Below, piece by piece: positions 1 to 27,420 of a stretch of 54,720 bases of DNA (positions within the stretch are counted from its first letter, which is position 1; each line of letters begins with the position of its first letter). The position numbers were made by a program, and so were the translations under genes. The stretch lies in NCBI GenBank assembly GCA_947642635.1, contig CANRTI010000008.1, forward strand, positions 1-54,720. Direction: 5' to 3'. The notes below the pieces were generated by a model. That model saw nothing but the letters and a program-made list of their open reading frames with translations. It was not told the DNA's origin and made no database searches. The stretch comes from an uncultured Mycoplasma sp. (lineage in GTDB: Bacteria; Bacillota_I; Bacilli_A; RF39; UBA660).

Positions 1-116
1 CCTCTTTATAGGTCACATTTTATACTGATGCACCTTCTTGTTTTGCTTTTGTTTTCTATACCGAACTTATTTTTCAAAAAAATACTGCTCTTTTACTAAA
101 TTAATTCAATACCAGA

Positions 117-150
117 CGGATTTTTTACTTCAAAATCCGTTTTATTTTCT
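117..150 (+). terminator. Intrinsic terminator-like hairpin at left edge
   Basis: An 8-bp perfect stem (CGGATTTT / AAAATCCG, 117-124 and 132-139) with a 7-base loop is followed on the + strand by a T-rich tract. It would end a + strand transcript coming from outside the window. It also lies just downstream of the stop of the minus-strand surface protein, where DGR target genes often carry a hairpin, so a second role is possible. Bases 1-116 hold no gene that I can support. Confidence 0.6.
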
Positions 151-174
151 ACCTTTATTCAAAAGTGTCCGGAA

Positions 175-1932
175 CTAAGTTATTATTATGAATGGATCAG
201 TTTGTGTTCCTGTTCCTGTTATCTCTATATTGGATTTCAGATAGAAGACTGGGCGAACCGAATACGTATAAGGCAAATCATACCCCACGCTGACAGAGCC
301 GTTCGAATCCACAAACCACGCGTAAGAACGGCTGCCATTAAAACCGTAACGCAACATTGTATATTCATATGAATGTGGTGGATTACTATCATTGTTGCTT
401 ATGTACATCCAACTTGTTTTACATGTACTTCCTGAACTAGCACAGTTTGTTCCTGTTTTACTTAATGCAAAATAATAATCTGCTACATACATTAATCCTA
501 TTTTTGCACTTACTGTTGTTGTAAATCCTTGTTCTGTTTGTAATATTGTGGCTGGTTCTTGTTTTTGATTCGTAAAATCCCCATATTTCCAGTTTACTGT
601 CTCTATTTTGTCTGCCCACCCTGATGGCATGTATGTTGTATTTCCTATAAATAGGTTACTATATTTTCCTCCGGAAATTCCGTTTAATCCTTTATATAAG
701 TCACTTGCATTCCACTTGATATCTGAAGTTCCTATATTATGCCAGTAGTATAACGTATTCAACGCCTCTTTCTTTATTAATTTAAACATTTTTCCTTGAC
801 CTTTATCTTTTGTTACTCCAATTATTCGATACATATATTTATCTTGTCCTGAGGTACTTGTACATTCTGTTTTATTTGTTGTTCCAAAACATATATAGTT
901 TGGTGGGTTTGTTCCATGATATCTCGTCTCTAATTCATCTTCTACTACTTTTGTTGGGCCAAAATCTGGTTCTTTATACTCTATTGATGCTACCTTTGGT
1001 ATCGATATTCCTTTACTATTTCTTAAATAAGCATAAAATGTTTTTACTACTGGTGTTGTAAATGTATATTCTTCACTTATTTCTTTAACTCCATTTACTG
1101 GTTTCCATGTACAATTATCGCTATTATTGGTATCTTCTAATATACAATAATCTGTTACTCGACTACTATTCCATTTTAAATTTAAAGTTATTTTCTCTTC
1201 TTCGGTTACTTTATTTTCTGTATTTTCATCATTAATATAAAACTTATTGATTATTGGTCCATCACTAAACTCTTGTACTGTTTCACATTTAAATGTTTTA
1301 TTAGTTATATTTACACTTAATTCTTTTCCTGTTAAGCCACTTTGATCTCCTGTTGTATTATTGATTGCCATTGTGGCTTTTATATCTCCTTCAATTATTC
1401 CACTTAACTTATATGTTATTGGTATCTCGATAGGACTCTTACCAGCAAGTTCTGCTAAGTCTAAATCTGTCTCATCCATCTCTAAATTATCTGTTGGACT
1501 TAATCTTATAAAACCATCACCAGTTTGTAAAGCATCTTTCATTGTTCCTGTTAATTCTATTTCTAAAACACTTTCACATTGAAACTTAGTATTTTCTTCT
1601 CCCCCAGTAACTCCTGCTACTGCTATACTTCTCTTTGTTTCTTCACTATCATAATTTTTATTTTTATCATTTGTTGCATAATATACTTTACCTGCATTAC
1701 TTAAACTCATATCGGCAGTAGTTAATTTTAAATGTAATTTCGGTGTTGGGTTATATATTGCTGCTACTCCTAATCCTTCTGTATCTCCCACTACATTTGT
1801 AGCACTCCCATTATTATTCGTTGTTATATTGTAATATGCAAATGATGCCCCTATTACAAAGGCTATTAACGTTATTACTCCTACTACTGTTAATACTACT
1901 TTCTTTTTTCTACTCTTTTCTTCTTCAATCAT
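175..1932 (-). CDS. Membrane-anchored surface protein, candidate DGR variable protein
   Basis: This 585-aa protein has an N-terminal membrane segment or uncleaved signal (residues about 11-33, ending in SFAYYN, a pattern common in TasA/SipW-type exported proteins). About 300 residues of beta-rich, Asn/Thr-rich extracellular sequence follow, then a C-terminal domain from about residue 335 with several paired cysteines. It ends in YSVRPVFYLKS and GTQTDPF, the type of ending seen on C-type-lectin/FGE-fold ligand-binding domains, including DGR targets. There is no LPXTG motif. The start is set by the RBS GAGAGGTAG five bases before ATG. It is a single gene, with a terminator-like hairpin beyond its stop. 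The codons for residues 526-565 are strikingly GC-rich and A-poor compared with the rest. The biological ligand is unknown; an adhesin or receptor role is inferred. Confidence 0.75.
   Translation of the reverse strand: MIEEEKSRKKKVVLTVVGVITLIAFVIGASFAYYNITTNNNGSATNVVGDTEGLGVAAIYNPTPKLHLKLTTADMSLSNAGKVYYATNDKNKNYDSEETKRSIAVAGVTGGEENTKFQCESVLEIELTGTMKDALQTGDGFIRLSPTDNLEMDETDLDLAELAGKSPIEIPITYKLSGIIEGDIKATMAINNTTGDQSGLTGKELSVNITNKTFKCETVQEFSDGPIINKFYINDENTENKVTEEEKITLNLKWNSSRVTDYCILEDTNNSDNCTWKPVNGVKEISEEYTFTTPVVKTFYAYLRNSKGISIPKVASIEYKEPDFGPTKVVEDELETRYHGTNPPNYICFGTTNKTECTSTSGQDKYMYRIIGVTKDKGQGKMFKLIKKEALNTLYYWHNIGTSDIKWNASDLYKGLNGISGGKYSNLFIGNTTYMPSGWADKIETVNWKYGDFTNQKQEPATILQTEQGFTTTVSAKIGLMYVADYYFALSKTGTNCASSGSTCKTSWMYISNNDSNPPHSYEYTMLRYGFNGSRSYAWFVDSNGSVSVGYDLPYTYSVRPVFYLKSNIEITGTGTQTDPFIIIT
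238..357 (-). other. Candidate DGR variable region (VR) inside the surface-protein gene
   Basis: Hand count over these 120 bases gives 59 G+C (49%) and only 16 adenines on the coding strand (13%), while the flanking coding sequence is AT-rich with frequent A. The block encodes residues 526-565, including RYGFNGSRSYAW and ending just before the RPVFYLKS tail. Position (3' end of the gene), adenine depletion and a GC-rich distal edge (GTTCGCCC) all match what adenine-specific mutagenic retrohoming leaves behind. No template repeat or reverse transcriptase is visible in this window, so the call remains inferential. Confidence 0.5.
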
Positions 1933-5100: not shown

Positions 5101-5872
5101 TATAATTATTCTTATTTTTTTCATAAGCATGATATAAAAAGATTGAAAAATCAGTTGTTACTCCTAATTGTAATACAGCCACTAAAGCTTTTGTTATATA
5201 AGATATTTCTCCTAAAAATATATTTGTTCCTAAATTAAATATAATGGATAATCCAATATTTAAAAGTAATAAAATTGGTACCAAATATGAATCTAAAGTT
5301 AATTCTAATACTAATAAGCAAAGAACAACGGCAATTAAGACATAAATAACTATTTCTTTATCAGATAAATCCATTGTATCTAAAACCATCGCACTCATTC
5401 CACTAATTTTTACTTTTTCACTAGCAATTTCTTTCATGGCTCTAATTGCCTCAATAGTTTTAGATGAAGATATACTTTCTTTAAAAGTTACAAACAAAAT
5501 ATCAGTTTCTTCCTTATGAAATTTTTCTATAATATCAGTTGGTAACATCATAGTTGGAACAGTAGTTCCTAAAACATCATATAAACTAACAACTTGATTT
5601 ACCCCATCAACTTTTTCAAATTCTTTACTTAAACTCAAAATATCTTTACTAGCCATATTATTTGTCATAACGATTGTATAGGCCCCCATATCAAAATCTT
5701 CCGTTAATATTTTTTGGCCTTCCACTGTTTCAATTTCTTCTGGTAAATATACTAAAATATCATAATTAATATTTGTAAGCTTAACTCCAATAATAGAAAA
5801 TATCAAAAATATTGAAGCTATTAGTAAAATTAATTTTCTTTTAGAACATATTATATCAGCCATTTTTTTCAT
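2120..5872 (-). CDS. MMPL/RND-family transporter fused to a secreted coiled-coil protein
   Basis: The protein is 1250 aa. Residues 1 to about 685 form a complete two-halved MMPL (RND superfamily) permease: TM1 near 15-35, an extracytoplasmic domain, a TM cluster near 175-335, TM near 352-370, a second external domain, and a second TM cluster near 520-680. Such proteins export lipids, siderophores or drugs using the proton gradient. Residue 690 onward (MKLKKKRLG, then a hydrophobic stretch ending at AIC) looks like the start and signal peptide of a separate exported protein. It has a beta-rich domain and a long coiled coil (about 970-1200) resembling the external part of YhgE/Pip-type proteins. 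An SD-like AAGGAAATGAG precedes that internal Met (3805). Start: ATG at 5872 with GGAGG eight bases upstream; a TTG one codon earlier is less likely. The divergent TetR gene probably represses it. Confidence 0.88.
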   Translation of the reverse strand: MKKMADIICSKRKLILLIASIFLIFSIIGVKLTNINYDILVYLPEEIETVEGQKILTEDFDMGAYTIVMTNNMASKDILSLSKEFEKVDGVNQVVSLYDVLGTTVPTMMLPTDIIEKFHKEETDILFVTFKESISSSKTIEAIRAMKEIASEKVKISGMSAMVLDTMDLSDKEIVIYVLIAVVLCLLVLELTLDSYLVPILLLLNIGLSIIFNLGTNIFLGEISYITKALVAVLQLGVTTDFSIFLYHAYEKNKNNYKNPLDAMSQAIVKTFTSVTGSSLTTIAGFLVLCTMNLTLGRDLGIVMAKGVLLGVIGVLTIFPSLLLVCDKWINKTKHKPITIKFTRLNKLVVKHYRSILIIFVILFVPLYLANQKVEVYYKIDESLPKNLDSIVANKELQEKFNLVSPEIILLDKNVVNADCMEMINRLENVAGIDFVLGFSKLKDLGLTEDMLPEELQKIFVSDKYQMLLLNSVYEIASEELNEQIEKVNKIIKEYDENSILAGEGPLMRDLVTISDTDFKNVNYSSIICILIIMFLVLKSLSLPILLIMGIEFAIFFNMAFAYFGGITLPFVAPIVLGTIELGATIDYAILLTTNYLENRKKNTSKKEAMLDALNYCSNSIFVSGMCFFAATFGVGIYSDLEMVGALCTLISRGAIISMLVVLTILPAILLVNDKLIMKTTLNGKGNEKMKLKKKRLGLSICLGILLLIPKQAICLSKEETIYTKLNTDGSIKSVVVNNHLINNEKLDKIKDYSELENIININSEHQYVKENNLVTWNSLGSDIFYKGTTNKKLPITTKINYKLNGQNILLKDLIGKDGDVVIEINFENQDKHFINGNNLYTPFVIVSGLVIQNDVNSNVLINNGKVIDNGSNYVVLGLTSPGLYNSLNVKELKNLDKLVISFTTKKFELPTIYSVVTPKIIEESDLKIFDKLDSLYSNVDVLQTSIDTILKSSGKLEEGFKTLEFGSQELAKNMDIVNDKLNDIKKGMISVNEGVEEIKDALLVVNKELNSDAYVNKIKELNYLIEQNTKTINFLSSNNKLLEESYINNNLENLTYEYLLNNNLMDLYQIKYQYENNYQNNLMLIKLLEGNKEGLTSSLDTFKNVSSLVNQLTKEMDKLNSGTSVLVNGIDEITKGVNKISSKMQELHKGVKTASTGMNLLTLGIDTFNKEGISKISKEAKNSKVLMTKVEDLVKLSNDYQSFSYKSNLDSNTKFIMVVDGVKVPEKEVIQNKEEVKLSLWDRFKNLFN

Positions 5873-5943
5873 CAAATTCCTCCATTCGTTATAACATTTT
5901 ATTCCTTCTATTTCTAAAAAACAGCCACAAAAAAATTAAAAAA

Positions 5944-5990
5944 GTTGGATAACCAACAATTTTTAGAAATAGTATTGTTAAATAACCAAC
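5944..5990. promoter_or_regulatory. Paired inverted-repeat operators, probable TetR sites
   Basis: Two 14-base elements, GTTGGATAACCAAC (5944-5957) and GTTAAATAACCAAC (5977-5990), share the right arm ATAACCAAC. The first is a 5-bp perfect inverted repeat. They are 33 bp apart, about three helical turns, so two dimers would bind the same DNA face. They lie between the divergent MMPL and TetR genes, upstream of both, the expected place for autoregulation plus repression of the transporter. Confidence 0.65.
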
Positions 5991-6005
5991 ATTTTGTCTT
6001 TTATG

Positions 6006-6033
6006 TTTACAAATGTTTCATAAACAGTATAAT
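6006..6033 (+). promoter_or_regulatory. Promoter of the TetR-family gene
   Basis: A TTTACA -35 (6006-6011) and a consensus TATAAT -10 (6028-6033) are separated by 16 bases. RBS AGAAGGTG (6037-6044) follows, seven bases before the ATG at 6052. A short inverted repeat TGTTTA...TAAACA (6004-6026) overlaps the spacer and could be a further regulator contact. Confidence 0.7.
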
Positions 6034-6051
6034 TAAAGAAGGTGAATATAA

Positions 6052-6618
6052 ATGAATAAAAATGATTTACGAGTAATTAAAACCAAAACTACACTTTATA
6101 ATACTTTAAAAGAATTAATGCAAGAAAAGACTTTTGAGGAAATAAAAGTTAGTGATATTTGTAGTAAAGCTTTAATTAACCGTTCTACTTTTTATGCCCA
6201 CTATAACGATAAATATGAATTACTAGCAGCTTTTATTGCTGAATTAAAAAAATCCTTAACGGATGAATTAAATAAAAATACTAACATCTCTAATACTAAA
6301 GAATATTATTTAGAGATGATTAAACTTTTTTTAAGTCATATTGAAGAAAAAAGAGAAACTTATTTAGCTATCATGCTAAATAATCGCAGTAGTATTACAA
6401 TGGACATAATTTACGATGTTTTAGACCATGATATTACAACCAAATTACAAGAAAAAAAACATCTTGAACAAAATATTCCTTCTAATATAATTGTAAAATT
6501 TTATTTAGGTGGTGTTATAAATGTTGGATTACTTTGGTTAAAAAATAAAAATTTATATACTAAAGAAGAATTAATTGAATATTTTAATCATTTAATTCCT
6601 AATAACTTAAATTTCTAA
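6052..6618 (+). CDS. TetR/AcrR-family transcriptional regulator
   Basis: This is a 188-aa DNA-binding repressor. The N-terminal helix-turn-helix is visible at about residues 25-50 (EIKVSDICSKALINRSTFY then HYNDKYELL), the classic TetR recognition block. The C-terminal half is all-helical with a hydrophobic pocket-like region (YLGGVINVGLLWL) as in the TetR_C ligand-binding domains. It is divergent from the MMPL transporter, with paired inverted repeats between them, so it most likely represses the transporter and itself and is released by a substrate of the pump. Its 3' end overlaps the convergent ABC-F gene by 12 bp. The inducer cannot be told from sequence. Confidence 0.9.
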   Translation: MNKNDLRVIKTKTTLYNTLKELMQEKTFEEIKVSDICSKALINRSTFYAHYNDKYELLAAFIAELKKSLTDELNKNTNISNTKEYYLEMIKLFLSHIEEKRETYLAIMLNNRSSITMDIIYDVLDHDITTKLQEKKHLEQNIPSNIIVKFYLGGVINVGLLWLKNKNLYTKEELIEYFNHLIPNNLNF

Positions 6619-8542: not shown

Positions 8543-10153
8543 CTAATAATAACATACTACATTATAAAAGACCTCAAACTTTTTAGAACATTTATCACTT
8601 CTTAAAAATTTATATTTATATTTTTTGATTAAATTATTAGTAGTAGTCAAAAATATTTTTAAATGCAAATTATATTTAGCATTATCTATTTTTGAAACCT
8701 CAATTACTTTTAATAAATGTTTTAGTAATATTTCATTAATTTCTTGTTCAGTAATTTTACTAAACAAACTATTTAAATCAACATGTTGAATATTTATTTT
8801 ATAATTATTTAATAATTTAATTTTCTTATTTAACTCCTCACTCTTTTTCTTAAATTCTTCCAAACTTACTAAATTATTCAAACTAAGTTCTAATAATTTC
8901 TCTTTTTGCATTTTTAATTTATGTAAATTTTTTTGATAATCTTTAATATTTTTTTCTTCATCAATATTTTTATTTTCTTGATAAATTTGCTTTAGAAAAT
9001 TAACAACATCTTGTTGACCAACTTTTAAACTAGCTATAATATCTTTCATTATTATATTTAATTCTGATTCTCTTATATTAGGTGTATCACAAAAATGTTT
9101 TCCTAATTCTAAATATTTTGAACAAACCCAAGTTATTTCTTTTTCACTTTTACAAAAAATTCGCCGATGAAAAAAAGCTTGATCACCTCCACATTTAATT
9201 TTTGAAGTATAAACATATTTTTTTCTATAATCGCCACTTTTTTTATTATTTTTTAACTTTTCATTAACTAAATTCCATAAACTAGCCGTAACTATTGGCG
9301 GAATTTTTTCATAATCTTCATGCATTACCCACTTATCTTCTTGAAAATATTTAATCTTTTTGGTCATATAATCTACAACTTCACTTTTTTTTCCACAATA
9401 ATATCCTTTATACTTAGGATTTCTTAACATTCTTAGCAAAGTAGTAGCACTCCATTTATTACAAGATTTCGTTAGAATTCCTTTGTTATTTAAATATTTA
9501 GCAATTTTATTTAAAGATAATCCATCTATACCATACATTGTAAATATATCTCTTACAATCATTGCTTCTTCTTCAATAATTTTAAGTTTCTTATTTATTT
9601 TATCTTTTTCATATCCATATAACAAATTATTCCCAAGAATTTCTCCTCTTTTAATAGCTCTATTCATTCCAAACTTTACTCTTTCAGACAATCTTCTTAT
9701 TTCATCTTGAGCCATAGAGGCCATAATTGTTAATCTTAACTCAGCATCTGGAAGAGCAGTATTTATATTATCATTTAAAAATAAAACCGCTACACCATAA
9801 CTTAATAACTCTCTAGTGTATTTTATACTATCTAAAGTATTTCGCGAAAATCTTGATATTTCTTTTGTTACAATTAAATCAAAAACACCTTTTTTAGCAT
9901 TATCAATCATTCGCATAAAATTATCTCTTTTTATATCACTTGTACCACTTATTCCCTCATCAATATAACTAGGAACATACTCCCAACAAGGATTTTCTTT
10001 AATATAATTATCAAAATATTCAATTTGATTTTTTAAAGATGATTTTTGTTCCAAATGATCAGTTGAAACTCGAACATAGGCTGTTACGCGTAACTTCATT
10101 TCGGTTAAAGCAATTCCTTCATTTAATTTACAACGTATCTCAAACAAATCCAT
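8543..10153 (-). CDS. Large serine recombinase (resolvase/invertase superfamily)
   Basis: The protein is 536 aa. The N-terminal catalytic domain has YVRVSTD with nucleophile Ser30, followed by the resolvase blocks DEGISGT and TKEISRFSRN. A Recombinase (PF07508-type) domain lies at about 165-270 (LYGYEKD, GLSLNKIAKYLN, NPKYKGYYCGKK). A Cys-containing zinc-ribbon region (about 320-365) and a long Lys/Glu coiled coil (about 395-450) follow, the order found in integrases of phages and integrative elements. It cuts and rejoins two att sites through a Ser-DNA link. Only a small SHOCT-like gene accompanies it, and a truncated ABC binding-protein gene abuts it, so this looks like a remnant or minimal integrated element. 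Start: ATG at 10153, five bases after the stop of the small ORF. Confidence 0.92.
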   Translation of the reverse strand: MDLFEIRCKLNEGIALTEMKLRVTAYVRVSTDHLEQKSSLKNQIEYFDNYIKENPCWEYVPSYIDEGISGTSDIKRDNFMRMIDNAKKGVFDLIVTKEISRFSRNTLDSIKYTRELLSYGVAVLFLNDNINTALPDAELRLTIMASMAQDEIRRLSERVKFGMNRAIKRGEILGNNLLYGYEKDKINKKLKIIEEEAMIVRDIFTMYGIDGLSLNKIAKYLNNKGILTKSCNKWSATTLLRMLRNPKYKGYYCGKKSEVVDYMTKKIKYFQEDKWVMHEDYEKIPPIVTASLWNLVNEKLKNNKKSGDYRKKYVYTSKIKCGGDQAFFHRRIFCKSEKEITWVCSKYLELGKHFCDTPNIRESELNIIMKDIIASLKVGQQDVVNFLKQIYQENKNIDEEKNIKDYQKNLHKLKMQKEKLLELSLNNLVSLEEFKKKSEELNKKIKLLNNYKINIQHVDLNSLFSKITEQEINEILLKHLLKVIEVSKIDNAKYNLHLKIFLTTTNNLIKKYKYKFLRSDKCSKKFEVFYNVVCYY

Positions 10154-21447: not shown

Positions 21448-23724
<2,277 letters not shown>

Positions 23725-24556: not shown

Positions 24557-27376
24557 TTATTTACAACCATTATTGACATAATTAGTCATTTCATTCATAA
24601 ATTGATTAGCTCGTCCACTACATTTTGGAGAAGGACAATTTCCATAATTAAGACAAGCTTCTGCTCCCGCTGGTCTTTCAAACCAATCACACCATTCAGT
24701 CGCCACATCAAAAGCTGAATAATTACCAGTAACTTTTTTATAAACACCTGGTTCTAATTGCTGCAACTCATGTAGAAAATATTCTATTTGCATTCCAGGA
24801 TCACCAATTGATTTATTTTTACTTTTAGCAAATTCATATAAACCTTGTTTTCTTCCTGGAGCAGTCCACTGAACAAACCCATATCCTGAATATTTATTTA
24901 CAAATTCTTGCTTACTAATTTGTCCTGAATCAACTTTTTTAGTATATTCAATAGAAGCTGTATAACCACTAGAAAAATCTCCTTCAATTCTTTGAGAAAT
25001 AAAACCACTTTCTTCCGCAATATTAATCATTATACCAATTGTAGCATTTTTGGAATAACCACTTTTTAAAAGTGATTTACATATATATTGTTTACCATTA
25101 TTCGGATCACCTTCTCCAACAAAATTTTTTGATACTGTTGGTCTTGGATATTCCTCACTAACATATTCTAAAGGATCAACTTTTACATTATTTAACTGCA
25201 TTTCAAAATGAAGATGACATCCCGTCGATGAACCCGAATTACCAATAAGACCTAATTTTTGACCTTGTTTAACTTGATCTCCTACTTTAACTGTTACAGA
25301 ATTAGGATACATATGACCATATATACTTACCATTCCATCACCGTGATCAATCATTACATAATTACCAAAACCAACTCCACAAGTATTACCATAACCTCCA
25401 TTATTATCACAACTATCATTTCGATCCATAACAGTTCCATCTTTCGTAGCTACAACAACTGTATCATTACAAGGACCAGCAATATCTAATGCACCATGAT
25501 TATCTGATGTACCTGCAATTTCCCTGGGTCCAAAAGTTGAAGTAATAGTTGTTGGCATAGGAGTTCCACCATAAATATCCCCTTTTGTTGGACTTTTACT
25601 ACCTATTGGCCACCAATAAGCATCATTCTCCGTAATATTATAAAAAGTACAGTAATCCCCTAAATTATAAATAGCTTTTTTCTCACTAATGTTATTAACT
25701 TTATCTAATTCACTAACTATCTTATCATAAATTACTTTTGCAAATGGCGAATCATAATGAACACCATCTCTTGTTCCATTTGCCATTTCTTCTTTACTAA
25801 AACCTAAATCTAAATAAATTAAATTACTTAAACCACTACCATTTATTTTCTCTTGCATATATTTATTAAATTCATCAATTTGACTATTTTGAACATATTC
25901 ACTACGGCTATCATCAACATAACCAACCGACACAACATAAATATTATTATTTTTCCAATCTCCAGTAGCTAATTCATAATACTTATTATAATATTTCTCT
26001 TTATTATCGGGATCATTTGCTCCTAACCATATTACAATATTATGAGGTTTACCCCATATTTTATCATTAACACATTCTATACCATCATGTTTACAATTAT
26101 AAGTATCCGCAGCATAAGTCGATGACACACTACCAATGAACCAATAATAACCCATTGCCCCAGCATAAACACTATTATTATTGTTAACAATTTCAAACAT
26201 ACGCATCCAATTCATCCGAGAATCTCCCACAAATATTGTATCTTTATGAACTTTAATATTCTCTTTAGCATCTTCTTCATCATTATTACTAATATTTTTA
26301 TTATAAAGAATATCTAAAATTGAAACATAACTTTGAGAATAATCTAACATTTCATTTAAAATATCATCATTAATAGGTAAAACAGATGATGAACTTAAAT
26401 TAGTAATTGCTGATTTATAAGATTCAGATATATATAACTTATCTTTTACACTAGAATACAAAGATTTTATTTTCTTTAATTCTGATTCGCTAATATCACC
26501 TATATCAGTATAAGTTTTATCACAATCATCAATAGTTATAGTTTTTGAAGAACTATTATACCCACCTTTACTTAAAGCATTAGTTTTCAAAATAATCATT
26601 AAAGCTTTTGTTGATTCACTAGATAATTCATAACTTTGTAAGTAAGAATAAGTCATTCCAATAACATAATCTTCAATATTTAAAACAATACTATCTCCAC
26701 CACATTTTTTTAAATTAATTGTTGTATCATTAAAATTACATGCTGAATCATAATATCCATCCCCATTTGCTTCTGGAGCTGTTGCAAAAAACAAAACAAG
26801 AACTAAAAAAACTACAATTATACCAGCAAGAACTAACAAAACCCAAGGATTAGCAATAATAAAAGCTTTTATTTTTTGACCAACAATTTTTAATGCTGCT
26901 TTACTTTTATCTTTTGCTTCTTTTTTTACTATATTTTTTACATTATTTAATTTATCATTACCACCAAAGTTTTTATCATTCGAATTATTACTAGTATTTA
27001 ATCCAACATTATTTCTTTTATGCAAATTACGTAATTTATCGCCAAAACTTTCTCTAGCATTAGATACATTACTCTCTTCATTAGCTTTTTTATTTTTAGA
27101 AAACTTATTTTTCCCTTGTGGTTTCGCTATATTTTCATTAGTATCATTAAAATTTTCATTATTTGAAACATTGTTATTTAAGGTATCTTCATTTTGATTA
27201 GAACTATCATCTAGCATACTATCTAAAATGTTTTCTAAATCTGTTAATCTTTCATAGCTAAAATCTTCCATTCCCACTTGTTCAGCAATAGCTTCTAAAT
27301 TTTCTAACACATTATCGCTATTATCAACATCAAGTCCCAATTTTCTAGCTTTTTCTATAACATTATCTATTTGCAT
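24557..27376 (-). CDS. Trimodular wall hydrolase: SGNH hydrolase + M23 peptidase + lysozyme (VirB1-like)
   Basis: About 939 aa from ATG 27376 (TAGGTGG RBS); a GTG four codons upstream is less likely. A cytoplasmic Asn-rich region (1-170) precedes one TM (about 173-198). The SGNH hydrolase module (about 380-560) has FVGDSRMNW and DGVHYD, giving the Ser and Asp-His of the triad. The M23 metallopeptidase (about 605-735) has STFGPRE, HGALDIA and GCHLHFEM. The C-terminal phage-type lysozyme (about 760-939) contains INIAEESGF and GYGFVQWT. Together it could deacetylate, cut peptide bridges and cut glycan while anchored at the channel, the VirB1 role in Gram-positive T4SS. It follows virB4 after a terminator. 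Confidence 0.9.
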   Translation of the reverse strand: MQIDNVIEKARKLGLDVDNSDNVLENLEAIAEQVGMEDFSYERLTDLENILDSMLDDSSNQNEDTLNNNVSNNENFNDTNENIAKPQGKNKFSKNKKANEESNVSNARESFGDKLRNLHKRNNVGLNTSNNSNDKNFGGNDKLNNVKNIVKKEAKDKSKAALKIVGQKIKAFIIANPWVLLVLAGIIVVFLVLVLFFATAPEANGDGYYDSACNFNDTTINLKKCGGDSIVLNIEDYVIGMTYSYLQSYELSSESTKALMIILKTNALSKGGYNSSSKTITIDDCDKTYTDIGDISESELKKIKSLYSSVKDKLYISESYKSAITNLSSSSVLPINDDILNEMLDYSQSYVSILDILYNKNISNNDEEDAKENIKVHKDTIFVGDSRMNWMRMFEIVNNNNSVYAGAMGYYWFIGSVSSTYAADTYNCKHDGIECVNDKIWGKPHNIVIWLGANDPDNKEKYYNKYYELATGDWKNNNIYVVSVGYVDDSRSEYVQNSQIDEFNKYMQEKINGSGLSNLIYLDLGFSKEEMANGTRDGVHYDSPFAKVIYDKIVSELDKVNNISEKKAIYNLGDYCTFYNITENDAYWWPIGSKSPTKGDIYGGTPMPTTITSTFGPREIAGTSDNHGALDIAGPCNDTVVVATKDGTVMDRNDSCDNNGGYGNTCGVGFGNYVMIDHGDGMVSIYGHMYPNSVTVKVGDQVKQGQKLGLIGNSGSSTGCHLHFEMQLNNVKVDPLEYVSEEYPRPTVSKNFVGEGDPNNGKQYICKSLLKSGYSKNATIGIMINIAEESGFISQRIEGDFSSGYTASIEYTKKVDSGQISKQEFVNKYSGYGFVQWTAPGRKQGLYEFAKSKNKSIGDPGMQIEYFLHELQQLEPGVYKKVTGNYSAFDVATEWCDWFERPAGAEACLNYGNCPSPKCSGRANQFMNEMTNYVNNGCK

Positions 27377-27420
27377 ACTAGAAACCACCTACTTAATAAT
27401 TTTAACATAAAAAATGCCTA

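Follow-up and report, generated by a model that had tools for sequence, protein, structure and literature searches.

The window, that is, the whole stretch of 54,720 nucleotides analysed here, corresponds to contig C8 of an assembly totalling 1.31 Mb (45 contigs). Its left end carries an ORF of 585 aa on the minus strand (175..1932), which we read as a DGR target gene, with a hydrophobic N-terminal segment and a C-terminal domain ending in a VR. The hydrophobic segment (VVLTVVGVITLIAFVIGASFAYY; 1834..1902, minus strand; read from the translation) is likely a membrane anchor. The C-terminal domain (178..942, minus strand) is common to the target genes of related genomes (36-54% identity), and the VR core, GCGTTACGG...GTTCGCCCAG (249..352, minus strand), was delimited by template comparison and composition. 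VR and template diverge after GTTCGCCCAG. The stop codon lies at 175-177, so the VR core is near the 3' end of the gene. An insertion-sequence end (1..177) with the terminal repeat CTTAGTTCCGGACACTTTT abuts this stop codon; the contig starts 174 bp past the stop codon, inside the insertion-sequence end, whose repetition accounts for the contig break. The same end abuts the last codons of three different targets at the same position (1-177 of the window, the end of C6 and the start of C2). Further into the window there are parts of an ICE (8543-10153, 21448-23724 and 24557-27388: large serine recombinase, type IV coupling protein and M23/phage-lysozyme cell-wall hydrolase).

The initial annotation had singled out the block at 238-357 as adenine-poor (13%) and GC-rich. 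On the coding (minus) strand it contains 14.2% A, 20.8% C, 28.3% G and 36.7% T (49.2% GC), compared with 42.8% A over the whole gene. The composition control consisted of 3,676 windows of 120 bp, taken at 12-bp steps from 40 ORFs of the same contig (A: mean 38.9%, sd 5.8, minimum 15.8; GC: mean 27.3%, sd 5.1, maximum 48.3): none had A at or below 13.3%, one had GC at or above 48.3% and none combined both, so the unusual composition is borne out, with 0/3,676 control windows comparable. The block does lie at the C-terminal end of the ORF carrying RPVFYLKS, as had been described.

The same annotation had called this ending C-type-lectin-like. The RPVFYLKS motif is present, and the fold itself is weakly indicated by a low-confidence model. 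Pfam had no family matching the 585-aa protein (a paralogue matches DUF6273), and a sequence search against solved structures returned no match to the target domain. Both structure predictions made were of low confidence (pLDDT of the target-domain model, 57.5). Six of the seven structural matches of this low-confidence model were C-type lectins (Z 2.3-3.8); its top structural match was an IgA peptidase (9qa6, Z 9.2), and the one significant Foldseek match was also an IgA peptidase.

Copies of the gene end and their mismatches

The end of the target gene matched 22 places in its own genome. Thirteen of these are full-length paralogous gene ends; the shorter copies match the GC-rich block alone and lie within ORFs of 51-76 aa with N-rich translations (for example, RYGYNGSGYNAWDVNSNGNVNNWNLNNTNSVRPAFYNL). 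AAY-rich codons are the hallmark of DGR templates.

Mismatches were counted between each VR and the best template from the same genome. The clearest pair of the assembly is the C6 VR and the template at C4:39.8k, with changes at 10/31 A and 0/65 non-A positions (p 3.9e-6). Two related genomes gave pairs of the same kind: 14/26 A and 0/67 non-A positions changed in G003 (p 6.5e-10), and 15/34 A and 0/62 non-A positions in G009 (p 1.4e-8). The window VR differs from its best template (C4:37.7k) at 15/28 A and 6/65 non-A positions, with one 3-bp gap (p 9e-6), and these non-A mismatches and the gap indicate that its exact template is absent from the assembly, probably owing to an assembly gap. Pooling 18 VRs against their best templates, 265/555 A and 83/1154 non-A positions were changed. 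The A bias was gone in several paralogous gene ends (C4, C7, C29), which look like retired targets. Pooled over all loosely orthologous template pairs, the A bias was uninformative because the genomes are AT-rich. A template adjacent to a VR was also considered as the source of that VR and discarded: it did not match in G000, and the best template usually lay elsewhere.

These AAY-rich noncoding near-repeats, differing from the VRs of the same genome mostly at template A, support the initial reading of the block as a VR, and the proposed limits (238-357) proved nearly exact, the template-homologous part being 249-352. The near-identical copy that a genome search was expected to reveal was found in part: A-biased copies exist, the exact template of the window VR does not appear among the 45 contigs.

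Architecture and dispersal of the template genes

The templates appear to be stand-alone noncoding RNA genes, with a promoter-like box and a terminator-like end predicted from their sequences. When the copies were aligned with their flanks, identity ran from a TATAAT box to a terminator-like stem, with none beyond. The noncoding unit of about 280 bp comprises the TATAAT box, the leader GGTARTCTT, a template of about 110 nt and a structured 3' element of about 130 nt, which ends in the terminator-like stem. We extracted 59 template genes across the loci of the genus, 55 of them with a readable leader; an exact TATAAT was found upstream in 48 of these 55, mostly 7 bp before GGTARTCTT. The 130 nt 3' of the template form five helices with 32 pairs in an alignment of 39 sequences: 98.4% of the cells are paired and 16 of the 32 pairs show changes on both sides, values as high were reached by 0/500 shuffles, and slid partners were paired at 40-45%. 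No Rfam family matches this element.

There was no template within the window itself and there were nine intact ones elsewhere in the genome, in agreement with the placement of the template outside the window originally proposed. A tenth is split between C7 (5' half) and C38 (3' half), and each half borders the same insertion-sequence end; the interrupting end (C7 end / C38:5878) is the one carrying CTTAGTTCCGGACACTTTT. A template fragment stands at the start of C22; a weak structure-model match at C22:1044 (E 2.4e-4) looks like chance and was rejected. Next to a template gene, L043:1152-7943 (G000 C22) encodes a 2,263-aa ORF that, by eye, contains numerous Ig-like or cadherin-like repeats and ends in a dockerin-like part.

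Across the genus, 40/59 template genes had no RT within 2 kb, and for 21/59 a target gene lay upstream on the same strand at no more than 2 kb, most within 340 bp. The largest number of templates in one genome was 13 (G008). The structure-model search, run on 117 sampled genomes, extended the template genes to another six genera of the family, at one or two copies each, some RT-linked and some beside a remote target only; phage and plasmid records yielded no template genes.

Genes for PF12784 PD-(D/E)XK nuclease 'transposases' adjoin many templates, often 90-140 bp downstream on the same strand (L100:3011-3832; L101:3335-4219 and 5259-6191; L103:1782-2669; L107:3605-4489; L042:5694-6527). By our count in six template-rich genomes, about 11/25 PF12784 copies are within about 1 kb of a template; the family is also found in template-free genomes. 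These nucleases might move or duplicate templates.

The reverse transcriptase locus

The RT predicted outside the window was not found in the assembly, and the prediction stands for the relatives, where 13 genomes of the genus have a DGR-type RT next to such templates. An RVT_1 profile search of the window's own genome gave nothing, and its assembly showed no gene for RT, Avd or MSL. A concatenated query of RT-locus proteins also had no match in this genome, missing even miaA, so its null alone proves nothing. RTs of several kinds are found in 27/38 genomes of the genus; in 13, template genes co-occur with an RT of about 375 aa (motifs IGNMTSQ and YMDD) in the order target, template(s), MutS_I-like protein, Avd, RT and small protein, followed by tmcAL and miaA in several genomes. 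Strong template matches occur in 14 genus genomes, 13 of them with the DGR-type RT; the window's genome is the sole exception.

Pfam and NCBIfam agreed on MutS_I, bAvd and RVT_1 in the loci of the relatives, with E-values of 5.9e-6 (bAvd) and 1e-9 (DivGenRetAVD) for Avd, both under the curated cut-off, and 1.5e-5 for MutS_I, over its cut-off. The closest solved relative of the RT in the PDB is 8ub7, which we take to be the BPP-1 DGR RT; judged by its sequence, the RT of the relatives is of the DGR type. It was not found in viral contigs. The small protein behind the RT in most genus loci (about 95 aa; L098:9911-10192 in G003) has no Pfam or NCBIfam match and is possibly a further DGR accessory.

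The assembly that carries the window also lacks tmcAL, which 36/38 genus genomes have, and a 323-aa gene of the RT-locus region found in 7/9 genomes, which makes an assembly gap at the RT locus likely. The 600-aa upstream neighbour of the RT locus is absent too, in a search made without a positive control. The simplest reading is that the RT of this strain likely lies in the gap.

Interpretation and comparison with known systems

The A-specific VR/TR mismatches, the template genes, the covarying structure and the RT/Avd/MSL locus of the relatives lead us to classify the system as a DGR variant. The block at the end of the target gene is very probably the VR of a surface DGR target, served by one RT locus and by many dispersed, trans-acting template RNA genes. 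Each template gene would be transcribed by itself, and its 3' element would bind and recruit RT and Avd, much like the BPP-1 spacer RNA. The RT, with Avd and the MutS-domain-I-like partner, would copy the template RNA, misincorporating opposite adenines, and the mutated cDNA would replace, by homing, the VR of any target matching at non-A positions, so that an AAY codon of the template becomes NNY in the target gene. Compatibility of many templates with many targets would be maintained by the conserved blocks GCG-TGG, GTG and GTTCGC. We infer that the system is active. The choice of AAY positions and of fixed ones (e.g. TGG or CCT) changes from template to template, so that each template is a different mask of variable residues.

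Loss of the RT in this strain, leaving templates and VRs that no longer change, would agree with the missing RT, Avd and MSL genes, with the template split by an insertion sequence and with the decay of some targets. We nevertheless consider such a relic unlikely: the assembly is also without tmcAL and the 323-aa gene next to the RT locus, both of which nearly every tested relative possesses, promoter-like and 3' parts are conserved in nine intact templates, and one VR equals its template at all non-A positions, as expected after recent homing.

Numerous scattered partial copies of the end of a variable gene, in an assembly lacking an RT, are also what silent coding cassettes of the vls/pilS kind would leave, the short copies then acting by ordinary homologous gene conversion and without reverse transcription. 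This is highly improbable, given that VR changes fall almost only at template A (no non-A change in the three clearest pairs), that the short copies are AAY-rich and have a promoter-like box, a covarying RNA structure and a terminator-like end, and that 13/14 genus genomes with strong template matches encode a DGR-type RT. We give almost no credence to an explanation without mutagenesis, according to which a GC-rich domain, horizontally acquired or biased in composition, underwent ordinary divergence; the GC and A contents of the block, far from those of the rest of the gene, would suit it, and the concentration of mismatches at template A over the 18 VRs already contradicts it.

Beyond diversification of targets by dispersed template genes, the templates themselves may form an evolving library that duplicates, recombines and has its adenines rewritten by the same RT through template-to-template mutagenic homing, a tentative proposal that we hold to be rather doubtful. 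If true, the organism would evolve the choice between fixed and randomised residues in its surface receptors. In three of six genomes, variation is much more frequent in template columns with A than in the others (15/23 vs 4/42; 18/23 vs 7/42; 16/24 vs 5/41), with no such A bias in the adjacent 3' element (a misregistered G000 3' row was ignored). Two near-orthologous templates differ by AGC/GAC, each one A change away from AAC, and, among 72 non-AAY codons found at AAY positions, 52 have C or T as their last base and TGG accounts for 11 of the other 20. Some of the A-column pattern could stem from relaxed or positive selection acting on these codons; A-column variation and codon endings fit either template rewriting by the same mechanism or codon selection, and the data do not separate the two. 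The templates at G032 C63:6282 and G008 C6:4065 are 99% identical and their 3' elements 78%, a value lowered by the contig end that cuts the G032 copy; the pair is a sign of recombination between template genes.

If true, autonomous trans-acting template genes would demonstrate that a DGR can have its template RNA, RT and target wholly separate from one another, and the unit of about 280 bp, with promoter and terminator, would be a minimal template-RNA module of natural origin, usable for targeted mutagenesis in the laboratory. The natural templates, of which there are dozens, also provide comparative data on the recognition RNA, which to our knowledge has so far been detailed in few systems. 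Searches restricted to a few kb around the RT (the DiGReF default is 5 kb; PMC3521204) would miss most of these templates, so the numbers of templates and of diversified genes in small-genome gut Bacilli are probably underestimated.

The system resembles the BPP-1 DGR (mtd/avd/TR/brt) in its RT and Avd homologues, in the A-directed VR changes at the 3' end of the target, and in the structured RNA, similar in length, that follows the template. BPP-1 has a single template between avd and the RT gene, and a spacer between TR and brt, whose RNA recruits RT and Avd (PMC12875486); here, in contrast, every template gene comes with a promoter-like box, a 3' RNA element and a terminator-like end of its own, and the majority lie far from the RT. 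More than one template per genome is a feature shared with the multi-template DGRs in the excerpted part of the MetaCSST survey, which lists up to 6 unique TRs in one record and a single TR in 79.9% of 271 DGRs with several VRs, and in which stand-alone template genes with a conserved promoter and 3' RNA are not described (PMC6642488). Nor did we find a DGR with many dispersed autonomous template genes described in the open-access literature, where earlier descriptions may have been missed. Targets far from the RT, as found here, are served in trans in Treponema denticola, cyanobacteria and Thiohalocapsa (PMC4891356, PMC7517822, PMC10907252). Remote targets and several templates are already known, and the many dispersed autonomous template genes appear to be new for DGRs: in those three cases dispersed targets use the template(s) of the DGR locus, whereas here it is the templates that are scattered, with up to 13 of them per genome.
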